A DNA stretch of 64,000 nucleotides, taken from contig DAHUZB010000010.1 in NCBI GenBank assembly GCA_027306785.1, positions 62,001-126,000 of the forward strand, read 5' to 3'. A model generated the notes under the pieces. It worked only from the letters and a program-made list of their open reading frames with translations. It searched no databases and was not told the DNA's origin. The stretch comes from Vulcanimicrobiota bacterium (GTDB lineage Bacteria > Vulcanimicrobiota > Vulcanimicrobiia > Vulcanimicrobiales > Vulcanimicrobiaceae). Positions 8,743 to 14,292 of this stretch are shown here, piece by piece. Position 1 is the first letter of the stretch, and each line of letters begins with the position of its first letter. Both the position numbers and the translations under genes were made by a program.

Positions 8743-9849
8743 ATGCACGTGGCCTGCAGCGAGTGCGCGGCACCCGCAAGCCCCTTCTCCCTCTGCCGCT
8801 GCGGCGGGCTCCCCGAATTCGCGCTCGGCGACGTGCGGCTCGATCCGCTCGGCCTGCGCCGCACGCTGCGCGAGCGCCGCGCCTCCTACGAACCGCTCTT
8901 CGCCTCGGGCGTCTGGCGCCTGCGCGAACTGCTCCCGCCCATCCCCGGGCAAGCGATCGTCTCGCTCGCCGAAGGCAACATCCCGCTCTACGATTCCGCC
9001 GCGGGCGCGCGCTACGCCGGCGTCGATCGGCTCGCGTACCTGCACCTCGGCATGTCGCCGACCGGCAGTTTCAAAGATCTCGGCATGACGGTCGCGGTCA
9101 GCGCCGCCGTCGCAAGTGGCGCGCGTGCGGTGGTTTGCGCGAGCACCGGCAACACCGCGTCGTCGATGGCCGCCTACGCCGCGCGCGCCGGGCTCGATGC
9201 ATTCGCGCTCGTACCGCGCGGTCGCGTGAGCGACGCCAAGCTCGGGCAGATGCGCGAATACGGCGCACGCGTGGTCGAAGTCGACGGCTCCTTCGACGAC
9301 GCCTTCGCCGAACTCGCGCGCATGGACGGCGCGATGATCGTGAACTCGATCAACGCCTACCGCATCGAAGGCCAAAAGTGCGCCGCCTACGCCATGCTCG
9401 AAGCGCGCGGCTGGCGCGTGCCGGATTGGATCGCGCTCCCCGGCGGCAATCTCGGCAACATCTCCGCCTTCGCCAAAGGCCTGCGCGAAGCACGGCAACT
9501 CGGCCTCATCGATACGCTCCCGCGCATCGCGCTCATCCGCGCCGCGCGCGGCGTCGACACCTCTGCCAGTGCCATCGCGATCGGCGATCCGAAGTCGCTG
9601 CGCCGTTCGCAGCGCGCCCTGCGCGACTTCGACGGCATCGAGCACTTCCTCGACGACGATGCGATCCTCGCCGCCAAAGCCGCGATCGGCCGCGAAGGGA
9701 TCGGCTGCGAACCCGCATCGGCCGCCTCGCTCGGTGGCATTCGCGCGTTGCGCGCGTGCGGCGCGATCGAACCCGATGCCGACGTGGTCGCCGTGCTCAC
9801 CGGCCACGTCCTCAAAGACGTGCGCGCGCATGCCCATGCGCTCGCGTAA
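8743..9849 (+). CDS. thrC: Threonine synthase
   Basis: This PLP enzyme converts O-phosphohomoserine to threonine. The 368-residue product has the PLP-lysine motif PTGSFKDLG (about residue 108), the phosphate-binding STGNTASS and the PGGNLGN loop. The N-terminus CSECAAP...CRC carries four cysteines like the zinc-ribbon-type start found in many bacterial and archaeal threonine synthases. The ATG at 8743 lies behind GGAGACGAACG. It is the first gene after the Thr attenuator and overlaps thrB by 14 nt, so the pair is translationally coupled. Confidence 0.93.
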   Translation: MHVACSECAAPASPFSLCRCGGLPEFALGDVRLDPLGLRRTLRERRASYEPLFASGVWRLRELLPPIPGQAIVSLAEGNIPLYDSAAGARYAGVDRLAYLHLGMSPTGSFKDLGMTVAVSAAVASGARAVVCASTGNTASSMAAYAARAGLDAFALVPRGRVSDAKLGQMREYGARVVEVDGSFDDAFAELARMDGAMIVNSINAYRIEGQKCAAYAMLEARGWRVPDWIALPGGNLGNISAFAKGLREARQLGLIDTLPRIALIRAARGVDTSASAIAIGDPKSLRRSQRALRDFDGIEHFLDDDAILAAKAAIGREGIGCEPASAASLGGIRALRACGAIEPDADVVAVLTGHVLKDVRAHAHALA

Positions 9850-10732
9850 CGCCTTCACGGTCAGCGTTCCCGCCACGAGCGCAAATCTCGGCCCCGGCTT
9901 CGATGCGGTCGGCATCGCGCTCGATCTGCGTCTGCGCGCGCGCGTGGAGCCCGCCGCGCGTTTCCGCATCATCATCGGCGGCGAACACGCGCCCACGCAC
10001 GACGGCTTCGCCGAGCGCATTCTCGAAGCGATGCGGTGCGTCGATTCACGCCTGCCGCGCATCGCACTGCACGTCGAGAACGCGATCCCGCTCGGCAAGG
10101 GACTCGGCTCCAGCGCCGCAGCATCGGTGCTCGGCCTGCTCGTCGCGGCGCGCGCGCACGGCACCTCGCTCTCGCGCGAACGCCTCGCCGAACTCGCCTG
10201 CGCGCACGAAGGCCATCCCGATAACGCACTCGCCGCCGTCTACGGCGGCGCCGTCATCGCTGCGTCTTCCGCCGCGCGCGACTGCGTGCGCGTGGCCGCA
10301 CCGCGCGATCTGCGCGCGCTCGTCGTGGTGCCCAACATCGATCTCGCCACGCACGAAGCGCGAGCATTGCTGCCGGCGCACTACGATCGCGGCGACGTCG
10401 TCTTCACCGCGCAGCGTGCATCGCTGCTCGGCGCCGCGCTCGCGTCGGGCTCGTGGCGCGCGCTGCGCACCGCGATGCACGATCGTCTGCATCAGCCCTA
10501 CCGCGCGCCGCGCATTCCCGGACTCGCGCAAGCGCTCGCGCTGCGCGCGCGCGATCTGGTCGGCATCGCGCTCTCGGGCGCGGGCCCGAGCGTGCTTGCG
10601 ATCGTGCATCCGGGCGACGGCGCCGCCGCGCTCGCGCGCCGCTTGGAACGCTGCTTCGCGAACGCCGGAATCGCGGCACGCGCGCACGAGCTCGCCTTCG
10701 CCGCGCGCGGCGTAACCGTGCGCGGGGGTTGA
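9836..10732 (+). CDS. thrB: Homoserine kinase (GHMP family)
   Basis: It phosphorylates homoserine for ThrC. GHMP kinase motifs are clear: VPATSANLGPGFDAVGIAL (motif 1, N-terminus), IPLGKGLGSSAAA (motif 2, ATP-binding loop) and GIALSGAGPSVLA (motif 3). The ATG at 9836, or at 9830 two codons earlier, overlaps the end of thrC. Sequence further upstream in this frame is antisense-like filler and was excluded. The length of 298 residues fits the family. The stop codon TGA (10730-10732) lies inside the -35 element of the following hom operon promoter. Confidence 0.93.
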   Translation: MRSRNAFTVSVPATSANLGPGFDAVGIALDLRLRARVEPAARFRIIIGGEHAPTHDGFAERILEAMRCVDSRLPRIALHVENAIPLGKGLGSSAAASVLGLLVAARAHGTSLSRERLAELACAHEGHPDNALAAVYGGAVIAASSAARDCVRVAAPRDLRALVVVPNIDLATHEARALLPAHYDRGDVVFTAQRASLLGAALASGSWRALRTAMHDRLHQPYRAPRIPGLAQALALRARDLVGIALSGAGPSVLAIVHPGDGAAALARRLERCFANAGIAARAHELAFAARGVTVRGG

Positions 10733-10758
10733 CGCCGTGATTTCCGCCGTGCTAGGCT
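10729..10758 (+). promoter_or_regulatory. Sigma70-like promoter of the hom-metY-metX attenuator
   Basis: TTGACG (10729-10734) and TAGGCT (10753-10758) are separated by 18 bp. The predicted start point is at about 10765, essentially at the leader-peptide ATG. Confidence 0.55.
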
Positions 10759-10765
10759 GGCGCAC

Positions 10766-10852
10766 ATGTTCGCGACCACCACCGCCATGATGTGTTCCAT
10801 GTGCCGCATGCAAATGCGTACGGCTTGGGTCGTCATGGAGAGCACCGTGTAG
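10766..10852 (+). CDS. Methionine/threonine-rich leader peptide (attenuator of the hom-met operon)
   Basis: A 28-codon frame from ATG 10766 to TAG 10852 contains 7 Met and 5 Thr codons, including ATTTAMMCSMCRMQMRT. It is followed by a 13-bp terminator hairpin and then by hom, metY and metX, whose products make homoserine-derived threonine and methionine. Codon content therefore matches the pathway's end products, as in classical ribosome attenuation. Methionine operons are normally controlled by S-box, SAM or T-box RNAs or by MetJ/MetR, so a Met-rich leader peptide is unusual. Promoter spacing suggests leaderless translation. No strong Shine-Dalgarno sequence is seen, which agrees with that. 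Confidence 0.7.
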   Translation: MFATTTAMMCSMCRMQMRTAWVVMESTV

Positions 10853-10876
10853 CGAACGAATCACGATGAACTCACC

Positions 10877-10909
10877 CGACGCCCCTCGCCGATCCAGCGA
10901 GGGGCGTCG
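10877..10909 (+). terminator. Attenuator terminator upstream of hom
   Basis: A perfect 13-bp stem (10877-10889 with 10897-10909; arm CGACGCCCCTCGC) with a 7-nt loop is followed by TCGTTTCCTCGCTTT. It lies 24 nt after the Met/Thr leader peptide and 40 nt before hom. Confidence 0.8.
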
Positions 10910-10949
10910 TCGTTTCCTCGCTTTCCCATCTCACCAGGAGGCCCGAGGA

Positions 10950-12080
10950 ATGGATTGCACCGCAGGCATCGCCCTGCTCGGGTGCGGCACCGTCGGCGCG
11001 AACGTCGCGCGGCGGCTGCTGCACGAACGCGACGCGCTCGAACGCCGCAGCGGCATCCGCTACGACGTGCGCGGCATCGCCGTGCGCGACGCGGAGAAAC
11101 CGCGCCGCGACGATCTCGGCGGCGCGCCCTTCACCCGCGACGCCCGCGCGCTCGTCGACGATGCGCGCGTCGATCTCGTCGTCGAATGCATCGGCGGCAC
11201 CGGCGAAGCGCTCGAACTCGTCGAACGCGCGCTCGATCGCGGCCGCTCCGTCGTCACCGCGAACAAGGATCTGATCGCCACGCACGGCCCGCGTCTGCGC
11301 GCCCTCGCCGCCTCGCGCGGCGTCAGCCTGCGTTACGAAGCGGCGGCCTGCGGCGCGATTCCGATCGTCCGCATGCTCGACGACGCACTCGCGGGCGATG
11401 CGATCGTCGCGCTCGCGGGCGTGATGAACGGCACCTGCACCGCGATTCTCTCCGCCATGGAAGCGGGCGCCGACTACGCCGACGCCCTGGCGCACGCGCA
11501 AGCCTGCGGCTACGCCGAAGCCGATCCATCCGCCGATGTCGACGGCGACGATGCAGCGCACAAACTCGCGCTGTTGATCCAGCTCGCGTTCGGACTCGCG
11601 GTGATCTCGCCGCGCATTCGCCGCAGCGGCATCGCGCAGATCACCAAGCGCGAGATCGCCCGCGCGCAGATGCTCGGCTACCGCATCCGCCTCGTCGCCG
11701 CCGCCGCGCGCACGCCGCAAGGCGCCCTCGCCGAGGTCGCGCCGGTGCTCGTGCGCGCCGATCATCCCTTCGCGCAAGGTCGCGGCCCCGAAAACGCGGT
11801 GCGCGTGGTCGCGCGCGACGCGGGCGGCCTCGTCTTCACCGGCAACGGCGCGGGCGGCGCACCCACCGCCTCGGCGGTGCTCGGCGATATCGTCACGGCG
11901 CTGCGCGGCCTGCGCGAACATCGCGATCTCGCCGCACACGCGCTGCCGCTCGATGCGGCGCTCGAGATCGCGCCGTTCTTCGCGGAGCTTCCGCGACATT
12001 CAGAACTCCCACGCTACGCGCTGTGGGATGACACCCTCCTCGATGCTCCGGTCTCGCTTGCCTCGCAAGCGTACTCCTGA
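10950..12080 (+). CDS. hom: Homoserine dehydrogenase
   Basis: It reduces aspartate semialdehyde to homoserine, the precursor of Thr and Met. The 376-residue product has the NAD(P)-binding [13 protein letters not shown], the TANKDL segment with catalytic-region Lys, [11 protein letters not shown] and [18 protein letters not shown]. The ATG at 10950 is chosen because CCCGAGG lies just upstream and the protein begins at the Rossmann strand. An earlier in-frame ATG at 10866 would place the terminator hairpin inside the coding region. No C-terminal ACT domain is present, so feedback inhibition through ACT is absent and leader-peptide attenuation may be the main control. It leads the hom-metY-metX operon. 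Confidence 0.95.
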
Positions 12081-12102: not shown

Positions 12103-13398
12103 ATGAGCACCACGCTCGAACAACCGGCCCAGCCCCACTTCGACACGCTCGCGATCCACGGCGGACACGCGGGCGACCCCGCCACCAAATCGCGCGCCGT
12201 CCCGATCTACCAAACCACCTCGTATCTCTTCGATAGCACCGAGCACGCGGGCAAACTCTTCGCCCTCGAAGAGTTCGGCAACATCTACACCCGCATCAAC
12301 AATCCCACGACCGACGTGCTCGAACAGCGCATCGCCGCGCTCGAAGGCGGCGCCGCGGCGCTCGCGGTGGCGAGCGGTCAAGCCGCCAACCTCTACGCCA
12401 TCCTCAATCTCGCGAAGGCGGGCGATCACATCGTGAGTTCCGCCTCGCTCTACGGCGGAACCTACAACGCCTTCGCCCACACCCTCAAGCGTTTCGGCAT
12501 CGAAGCGAGCCTGGTCGATTTCGCCGATCCCTTCGCCGTCGAAGCCGCCATCAAACCGAACACCAAGGCGCTCTTCGCCGAGACGATCGGCAATCCGAAG
12601 ATCGACGTGCTCGATATCGCGCTCTACGCCGATCTCGCGCATCGCCACGGTCTGCCGCTCGTGGTCGATAACACGCTCGCCACGCCCTATCTGCTCAAAC
12701 CGATCGAACCCGGCGCCGATATCGTGGTGCACAGCGCGACCAAATTCATCGGCGGCCACGGCACCGCGATCGGCGGCGTGATCGTCGACGGCGGCAGCTT
12801 CGACTGGGCCGCAAGCCCGCGCTTTCCCGAATTCGTCGATCCCGATCCGTCGTATCACGGCCTGCAATATGCGCCCGTCTTCGGCAACATCGCCTATATT
12901 CTGAAGGCGCGCGTGCAGTTGCTGCGCGACGTGGGCGCGGCGCTTTCGCCCTTCAACGCGTGGCTGTTGCTCCTCGGGCTCGAAACGCTCGGTCTGCGCG
13001 TCGAACGTCACAGCCGCAACGCGCAAGCCGTCGCCGAATTTCTCGCCGCGCATCCGAAGGTCACACGCGTCTCGTATCCCGGCCTCCCGAACGATCCCGC
13101 GCACGAACGCGCGCAGAAGTATCTGCGCGGCGGCTTCGGCGCGATCCTCACCTTCGATGTCGCGGGCGGCGAACGCGAAGCGCGCGCGGTGATCGATCGC
13201 CTCAAGCTCTTCTCGCTGCTCGCAAACGTCGGCGATGCGAAGTCGCTCGTCATTCACCCGGCGACGACCACGCACCAGCAACTCACCGAAGCCGAACGCG
13301 CGGCGAGCGGCGTCACCGGATCCACCGTGCGTCTCTCGATCGGCATCGAAGACGAGCGCGACATCCTCGCCGATCTGCGTCAGGCGCTCGAAGCCTAA
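12103..13398 (+). CDS. metY: O-acetylhomoserine sulfhydrylase / aminocarboxypropyltransferase
   Basis: This Cys/Met-metabolism PLP enzyme makes homocysteine from O-acetylhomoserine and sulfide. The 431-residue product shows TLAIHGGH at the N-terminus, [22 protein letters not shown], the ASGQAA phosphate loop, the PLP-lysine motif [13 protein letters not shown] and the C-terminal [11 protein letters not shown]...VRLSIGIED. Length and the long insert around [16 protein letters not shown] fit MetY rather than MetB/MetC. The ATG at 12103 has GGGAAAGG upstream. metX begins at the nucleotide after its stop codon. Confidence 0.94.
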
Positions 13399-14292
13399 GT
13401 GGCGCTCACGATGTACGGGTCGCCCTCGGCAAACGGCGACAACGTGATCTTCGTCCCCCACGCGCTGACCGGCCACAGCCGCGTCGCCGAGTGGTGGCCC
13501 GACATCGTAGGCGAAAACGCCCTCTTCGACCCCAACTCCTGGTGCATCATCGGCCTCGACCTCGAACCGCCTCACCCCGCCCCCCCGTGTCACCCTGACC
13601 CACTGTGTCATCCTGAGCCACTGTGTCATCCTGAGCTTGTCGAAGGGGCGATGTCATCCGTCGTACGCGAGCAGATGCGTGCGCTCGACGAACTCGGCAT
13701 CTCCCGCTTGCGGTTCGTCATCGGCGGTTCGCTCGGGGGCATGCAGGCGCTGCAGTGGGCGCTCGATGCTCCCGAGCGCGTCGATCACGCGATCGTGATC
13801 GGCGCGCACGATCATCACAGCGCGATGGGCATCGCGCTCAACGCGGTGCAGCGCGACTGCATCGCACTCGATCCGGAACGCGGACTCGGCGTCGCGCGCA
13901 AGCTCGCCATGCTCACGTACAAATCCGAAGAGCTGCTACGCGCGCGTCACGATCGCCGCCCCGACCGTAACGATCCGTCACGCTTCGATATCGAAGGCTA
14001 CCTCGATCATCAGGCGCGTATCTTCCTCGCGCGCATGGATCCCGCCGAGTACGTCCGCCGCACGCACCTCATGGACGGCTTCGACGTGCGCGACCGCGCG
14101 AAACCCCCGAACGTCGAGCTCACCTTCGTCGGCATCTCCTCCGACTGGCTCTTCCGCCCGCAAGATGTTCGCCGCACGGCCGAGCGCCTCGGCGCCCGCT
14201 ATCTGGAGATGACGAGCGAGCACGGCCACGACGCCTTCCTCGCCGAATCCAACGCCCTCCGAACCCTTCTCACCCCCCTCGTCTCACCCTGA
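13399..14292 (+). CDS. metX: Homoserine O-acetyltransferase with an in-frame repeat insertion
   Basis: It would acetylate homoserine for MetY. The GTG at 13399 directly follows the metY stop. Alpha/beta-hydrolase MetX features are present: VIFVPHALTGHSRVA, the nucleophile GGSLGGMQALQWA, VGISSDWLF (Asp) and SEHGHDAFL (His). Between NSWCIIG and SSVVREQMRALDELGI, where MetX proteins normally have the conserved GGCxGSTGPxSxNPxTG...FP segment, there is instead a stretch encoded by the genome's short repeat (CHPDPLCHPEPLCHPELVEG). About 35 conserved residues are thus replaced by ~28 repeat-coded ones. The frame is open and the triad retained, but activity is doubtful. It may be a decaying or remodelled gene. 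Confidence 0.75.
   Translation: MALTMYGSPSANGDNVIFVPHALTGHSRVAEWWPDIVGENALFDPNSWCIIGLDLEPPHPAPPCHPDPLCHPEPLCHPELVEGAMSSVVREQMRALDELGISRLRFVIGGSLGGMQALQWALDAPERVDHAIVIGAHDHHSAMGIALNAVQRDCIALDPERGLGVARKLAMLTYKSEELLRARHDRRPDRNDPSRFDIEGYLDHQARIFLARMDPAEYVRRTHLMDGFDVRDRAKPPNVELTFVGISSDWLFRPQDVRRTAERLGARYLEMTSEHGHDAFLAESNALRTLLTPLVSP
13587..13650 (+). repeat. Dispersed GTGTCACCCTGAGC repeat copies inside metX
   Basis: Three partial units (GTGTCACCCTGACCCAC, TGTGTCATCCTGAGCCAC and a longer unit ending CTTGTCGAAGGGGC) lie in tandem in the coding frame of metX. Elsewhere in the window the same family sits mainly between genes. Confidence 0.85.

Follow-up and report, generated by a model that had tools for sequence, protein, structure and literature searches.

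Within a 64,000-nucleotide (nt) stretch from a Vulcanimicrobiota bacterium (family Vulcanimicrobiaceae; GenBank assembly GCA_027306785.1, 3.1 Mb in 35 contigs; contig DAHUZB010000010.1, positions 62,001 to 126,000), hereafter the window, the genes thrC, thrB, hom, metY and metX follow one another on the plus strand, and a short Met-rich reading frame lies between thrB and hom. We propose, with a probability of about 0.88, that this region is a ribosome-mediated transcription attenuator placed before hom-metY-metX, which senses methionine and probably also cysteine. The genes and the elements of the putative attenuator are:

8743-9849, plus strand: thrC
about 9836-10732, plus strand: thrB
10729-10734, plus strand: -35 box TTGACG, overlapping the thrB stop codon
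10753-10758, plus strand: -10 box TAGGCT, separated from the -35 box by an 18-nt spacer and lying 7 nt ahead of the leader ATG at 10766
10766..10852, plus strand: leader frame MFATTTAMMCSMCRMQMRTAWVVMESTV, 28 codons, stop codon TAG at 10850-10852
10787..10816, plus strand: Met/Cys control codons 8-17 (MMCSMCRMQM), the presumed stall site, kept in alignments
10822..10850, plus strand: predicted antiterminator 5' strand, the 3' half of the leader frame, pairing with the terminator 5' arm region
10861..10889, plus strand: predicted antiterminator 3' strand, whose end lies within the terminator 5' arm
10877..10909, plus strand: intrinsic terminator CGACGCCCCTCGC-CGATCCA-GCGAGGGGCGTCG, 13 bp, -28.0 kcal/mol
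10950..12080, plus strand: hom, homoserine dehydrogenase without an ACT domain (PF00742, PF03447; NF004976)
12103..13398, plus strand: metY, O-acetylhomoserine sulfhydrylase (TIGR01326, 670.7 bits, cut-off 495.1)
13399..14292, plus strand: metX, an atypical homoserine O-acetyltransferase (NF001209, 201 bits, below the cut-off of 331)

The 28 codons of MFATTTAMMCSMCRMQMRTAWVVMESTV include seven Met (the start counted), five Thr and two Cys. A preceding sequence-only reading of the window had described this Met- and Thr-containing frame, its position ahead of hom between a promoter and a 13-bp terminator (10729-10909) and a Hom protein lacking an ACT domain; the letters agree with the first two points, and Pfam bears out the third. 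With Met at 1.8% of codons locally, at least six internal Met in 27 codons have a probability of about 8e-6, and at least five Thr would arise by chance with a probability of about 0.02. The terminator begins 24 nt past the leader stop and is followed on its 3' side by the T-rich tract TCGTTTCC; hom starts at the ATG at 10950 behind the Shine-Dalgarno (SD) sequence AGGAGG. The same reading had noted that the frame appears leaderless, which would agree with the 7-nt gap between -10 box and ATG and with its retention in relatives, where it measures 7 nt in all but two or three of 28 hom-met leaders. In nearly all of these the -35 box matches TTGACA at five or six of six positions, with a spacer of 17-18 nt. 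A general excess of leaderless genes was not demonstrable in the small sample examined.

Conservation was followed through a family set of 99 genomes and a phylum set of 149. The leader layout before hom recurs in 28 family genomes, hom itself being detected in 70 of the 99, and strong terminators follow the leaders of relatives too. Covariance-model matches with E < 1e-12 were obtained in 12 genera; strong matches are confined to the family, and two weak ones lie outside it among the phylum genomes. Across 26 leaders, window included, 121 internal ATG triplets stand in frame, compared with 12 and 2 in the other two frames, and Met makes up 18.2% of leader codons, as against 1.8% of those in local genes. 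Conservation of the Met codons in relatives, which the sequence-only reading had named as its check, is seen in most leader-bearing genera. Its second amino acid fared differently: Thr accounts for 7.6-8.1% of hom-met leader codons versus about 6.0% in local genes, which is near background, whereas Cys is enriched (8.1% of codons in the 26 leaders) and Thr/Ile leaders occur where hom is solitary; a role for Thr as second signal in this operon is not supported. Met and Cys are placed in codons 2-19, and the later codons are mainly Val, Ala and Arg. Loss of a single base in genus g5 changes the frame of the later part, yet the RNA sequence GGGUCGUCGUGAAGC is retained, which indicates that the first half of the leader is kept as codons and the second half as RNA.

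In nearly all leaders, this second half can pair with the terminator 5' arm and the bases preceding it. Since the arms looked misregistered in the MAFFT leader alignment A1, pairing was assessed by single-sequence duplexes against dinucleotide shuffles, which gave a median antiterminator z score of -3.1 for 26 Met-type leaders and of -4.4 for ten Thr-type leaders; most leaders have a duplex that outdoes 95% or more of its shuffles, with z scores of -3.9 to -5.6 in L003, L004, L022, L026 and others. The arms also covary (GUCGU/ACGAC in L003, GUCAU/AUGAU in L004). In folds of the window's nascent RNA, the share of the terminator arm that pairs with the frame is 75% when the ribosome is placed on codons 8-15; this value is 9% with the ribosome at codon 24 and 0% with it at the stop codon.

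Other genes of amino-acid and sulfur metabolism in the family are preceded, as judged from sequence comparison, by the same architecture with different codons, and codon identity follows the downstream gene: Thr/Ile leaders stand before solitary hom, Val/Leu leaders before ilvB, Met/Cys leaders before metY-metX, metB-like genes, ssuA and cysI, and Cys leaders before cysH. In genus g37, where hom lies after metX and no met or thr gene follows it in the stretches read, the hom leader is of Thr/Ile type (MAAISMITTTTITTTLGEGRSGLTSA); metY-metX, located elsewhere in this clade, carries Met/Cys leaders (MDACCMAMMAMCAAREGRCRSSSP in G090, MDARSMAIMAMCATREGRCRSSLP in G088), so that individual g37 genomes contain both a Met-type metY leader and a Thr-type hom leader. 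The hom gene of g21 comes after thrB and has no leader, the Met leader standing instead before metY-metX (L184), and in G002 a Met leader lies directly ahead of metY, behind what appears to be the tail of a deleted hom (L203). Met/Cys leaders were also seen ahead of genes resembling those for cystathionine gamma-synthase (L192, L197), ssuA (L188, L189, L217, L218, L230-L233) and cysI (L191, L196), a Cys-rich leader precedes a cysH-like reductase gene (L225), and a leaderless Val/Leu/Ile leader peptide with a terminator precedes ilvB (L186, L187); the downstream gene was identified by profile for L188, L191, L192, L196 and L197, the other sulfur genes being named from sequence. When leader composition was permuted between hom-met and hom-alone loci, 0 of 20000 permutations were as extreme, a value to be read descriptively, as the rows are related.

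Leaderless Thr/Ile leader peptides with a terminator were also seen before solitary hom at L101, L103 and L105-L113 (genus g37, G059, G060). The family's hom-alone leaders (MAAISMITTTTITTTLGEG...) are, we presume, similar to thrL of Escherichia coli. The leader MTLSMSMAITMSMITTCLRDEAAFSVR before the solitary hom of G045 (L118) mixes Met, Thr and Ile codons, which correspond to the three end products that derive from homoserine.

Frame, codon bias, conservation, terminator and complementarity are established by sequence comparison, and together they present the features of a trp-type attenuator: a conserved codon-enriched leader frame, an intervening terminator and a mutually exclusive antiterminator, the window's own pairing being weak when taken alone. 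From these we infer where transcription starts, that the ribosome stalls, that the polymerase reads through and which amino acid is sensed, and propose the following sequence of events, in which (i) RNA polymerase would start at or beside the leader ATG, as predicted, and a ribosome would load on the leaderless message; (ii) with ample charged Met-tRNA, and probably Cys-tRNA, the ribosome would pass codons 8-17, reach the stop codon and cover the 3' half of the frame, which then could not pair with the terminator 5' arm, so that the terminator would form and transcription halt before hom; (iii) when Met (or Cys) is scarce, the ribosome would stall in the Met/Cys cluster, leaving the 3' half free to pair with the terminator 5' arm; (iv) with that arm captured, the polymerase would read on into hom-metY-metX.

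Several observations weigh against this proposal. The window's antiterminator is weaker than that of its relatives, with a z score of -1.5 and 21 of 300 shuffles equally good, and the U tract of its terminator is broken up (TCGTTTCC). RNAalifold on A1 gave no consensus pairs, a null result that is probably due to the misregistered arms. The finished terminator is favoured in every full-length fold, and antitermination must therefore be kinetic, decided as the RNA emerges. Several hom-metY genera are without such a leader (L028-L030), and in g12, where hom-metY-metX is preceded by the architecture, the leader is poor in Met (MISFTSRMSTCCSAK...). The leader is missing from L010 and L021 as well; there the hom promoter is fused straight to the ribosome-binding site (RBS) hairpin, leader and terminator being gone, and the two loci represent natural attenuator deletions.

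This hairpin is a second conserved element, located between the terminator and hom, and is listed here with the stretch at its base:

10913..10921, plus strand: TTTCCTCGC, complementary to the terminator 3' arm and overlapping the base of the RBS hairpin; 8 bp, -12.9 kcal/mol
10920..10942, plus strand: SD-masking hairpin GCTTTC-CCATCTCACCA-GGAGGC with a conserved loop; pattern in 30 of 99 genomes, reversed-pattern control 0

In its RNA form, GCUUUC-CCAUCUCACCA-GGAGGC, the loop is nearly invariant; the pairs hold in 95% of cells, the covariation score was reached by 0 of 500 shuffles, and slid controls scored lower. A search with the hairpin only recovers hom leaders together with ssuA, cysI and a cysH-like gene, and each newly recovered site carries a Met/Cys or Cys leader, so that leader peptide, terminator and SD-masking hairpin occur together at L217, L218, L230-L233, L225, L191 and L196. 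The terminator 3' arm is complementary to the hairpin foot in most leaders and beats cross-genus pairings (7 of 2000 permutations). Predicted SD accessibility rises modestly in 23 of 29 leaders and is unchanged in the window, for which reason it stays hypothetical that the terminator 3' arm frees the SD. The elements could be combined into a family-wide sulfur regulon (hom-metYX, metYX, metB-like, ssuA, cysI, cysH) run by leaderless Met/Cys attenuators, in which the terminator 3' arm, freed by antitermination, would pair with TTCCTCGC by the first gene and loosen the SD-masking hairpin, one stalled ribosome thereby permitting transcription and raising translation; in this full form we consider the idea doubtful. 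Rfam matches to 6C and 23S-methyl RNAs in these regions fall far under the gathering scores and reflect the SD-masking hairpin.

The near-invariant loop ahead of hom, ssuA, cysI and the cysH-like gene, the support for its pairing and the retention of the hairpin at L010 and L021 despite the missing leader could instead mean that the hairpin is the main control, acted on by a ligand, a protein or a small RNA at the loop, with the leader frame secondary. We regard this as unlikely: the hairpin is missing at the metY-metX leaders L184, L190 and L201 and at some hom leaders (L005), although a Met-type leader is present there, and it has no Rfam match. The sequence-only reading had suggested that control may rest on the attenuator; the hairpin, as a further conserved element, masks the SD of hom. 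A more conventional explanation, that a known S-adenosylmethionine (SAM) riboswitch or a T-box controls the operon and the frame is Met-rich by chance, has in its favour that RNA control of Met genes is usually of these kinds. However, the window has no Rfam match, searches with Rfam models that detected their positive controls found the SAM-I riboswitch in 0 and the T-box in 0 of the 99 family genomes, and the strong frame bias and conservation of the leader frame make the explanation scarcely credible for the Rfam families searched.

The leader could also act through its peptide, a specific nascent chain (MMC.MC.MQM) arresting the ribosome on sensing SAM or Met and the stall controlling termination. 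The order MM-C--MC-M-M is indeed fairly conserved in hom-metYX leaders, with Cys and often Gln. Other sulfur-gene leaders, however, keep the Met/Cys content without this order (MDACCMAMMAMCAAREGR, MTCRPMAMCMAMCC), and ahead of other genes the same architecture carries Thr/Ile or Val/Leu codons, a pattern that codon-based attenuation would produce. Arrest we judge very improbable.

Two sets of candidates were set aside. The covariance matches L185, L194, L195, L198-L200 and L202 (E 1e-6 to 1e-4) have neither a leaderless frame nor such a terminator, and the conserved stretch that they share is probably antisense to a tRNA-synthetase gene. On a Bacillota contig (L074), a Met-rich frame ahead of hom is an alternative frame of the end of an acidic protein, followed by that gene's terminator. 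Within the operon, positions 13590-13660 of metX hold an in-frame run of interspersed repeats (TGTCATCCTGAGC...TTGTCGAAGGGG) in place of the expected conserved MetX region; given this run and scores well under the MetX cut-offs, the gene may be impaired.

Conserved Met/Cys attenuation in this little-studied phylum would close a gap in the known attenuator specificities, and the reuse of a single architecture with codons changed to other amino acids upon gene rearrangement would amount to a natural codon-swap experiment. It would also raise a testable question, as a lack of Met hampers not only elongation but also initiation, and a leaderless start may cope differently with it.

Leader-peptide attenuation is textbook knowledge for Trp, His, Thr, Leu, Ile/Val and Phe, and methionine control is usually ascribed to SAM riboswitches, T-boxes and repressors. 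SAM (S-box) riboswitches likewise act on Met genes by premature termination, but without a leader peptide. In the literature searched, we found no described attenuator in this phylum and no experimentally tested Met attenuator, most subscription journals being outside the coverage. The earlier statement that Met attenuation is rarely if ever described is thus nearly right, except that one Met leader, the nearest precedent we found, has already been proposed: metL before metNIQ in Streptomyces lividans TK24, untested by experiment and without a typical terminator (PMC8079986). Like the leaders described here, metL (RCMCRRMCAF) contains Met and Cys codons and lies before Met genes, and it is leaderless, as they are predicted to be; it differs in being known from one genome and preceding a transporter, whereas the leaders described here precede biosynthesis genes in many genera and combine a terminator with an antiterminator. 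An early survey of Actinobacteria listed candidate Cys leaders and none for Met, and saw no conserved terminator hairpin upstream of the Mycobacterium cys operon (PMC1262725). The leaderless, Cys-rich polycysteine upstream open reading frame (uORF) attenuators of mycobacteria (PMC4633059; Canestrari 2020 as cited in PMC13236596) resemble the window in having a short frame before sulfur genes, predicted to be leaderless in the window too, and a sulfur amino acid as the signal, which in the window is proposed; those uORFs rely on Cys only, whereas the window leader is Met-dominated and has a strong intrinsic terminator. In layout the window leader also resembles trpL, hisL, thrL and the ilv/leu attenuators of enterobacteria, in which a short codon-rich frame and a rival antiterminator and intrinsic terminator also precede the operon. 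In contrast to these, the frame reported here uses Met and Cys codons and is probably leaderless, and the conserved putative Met/Cys attenuator is most likely of the classical kind with a new specificity.
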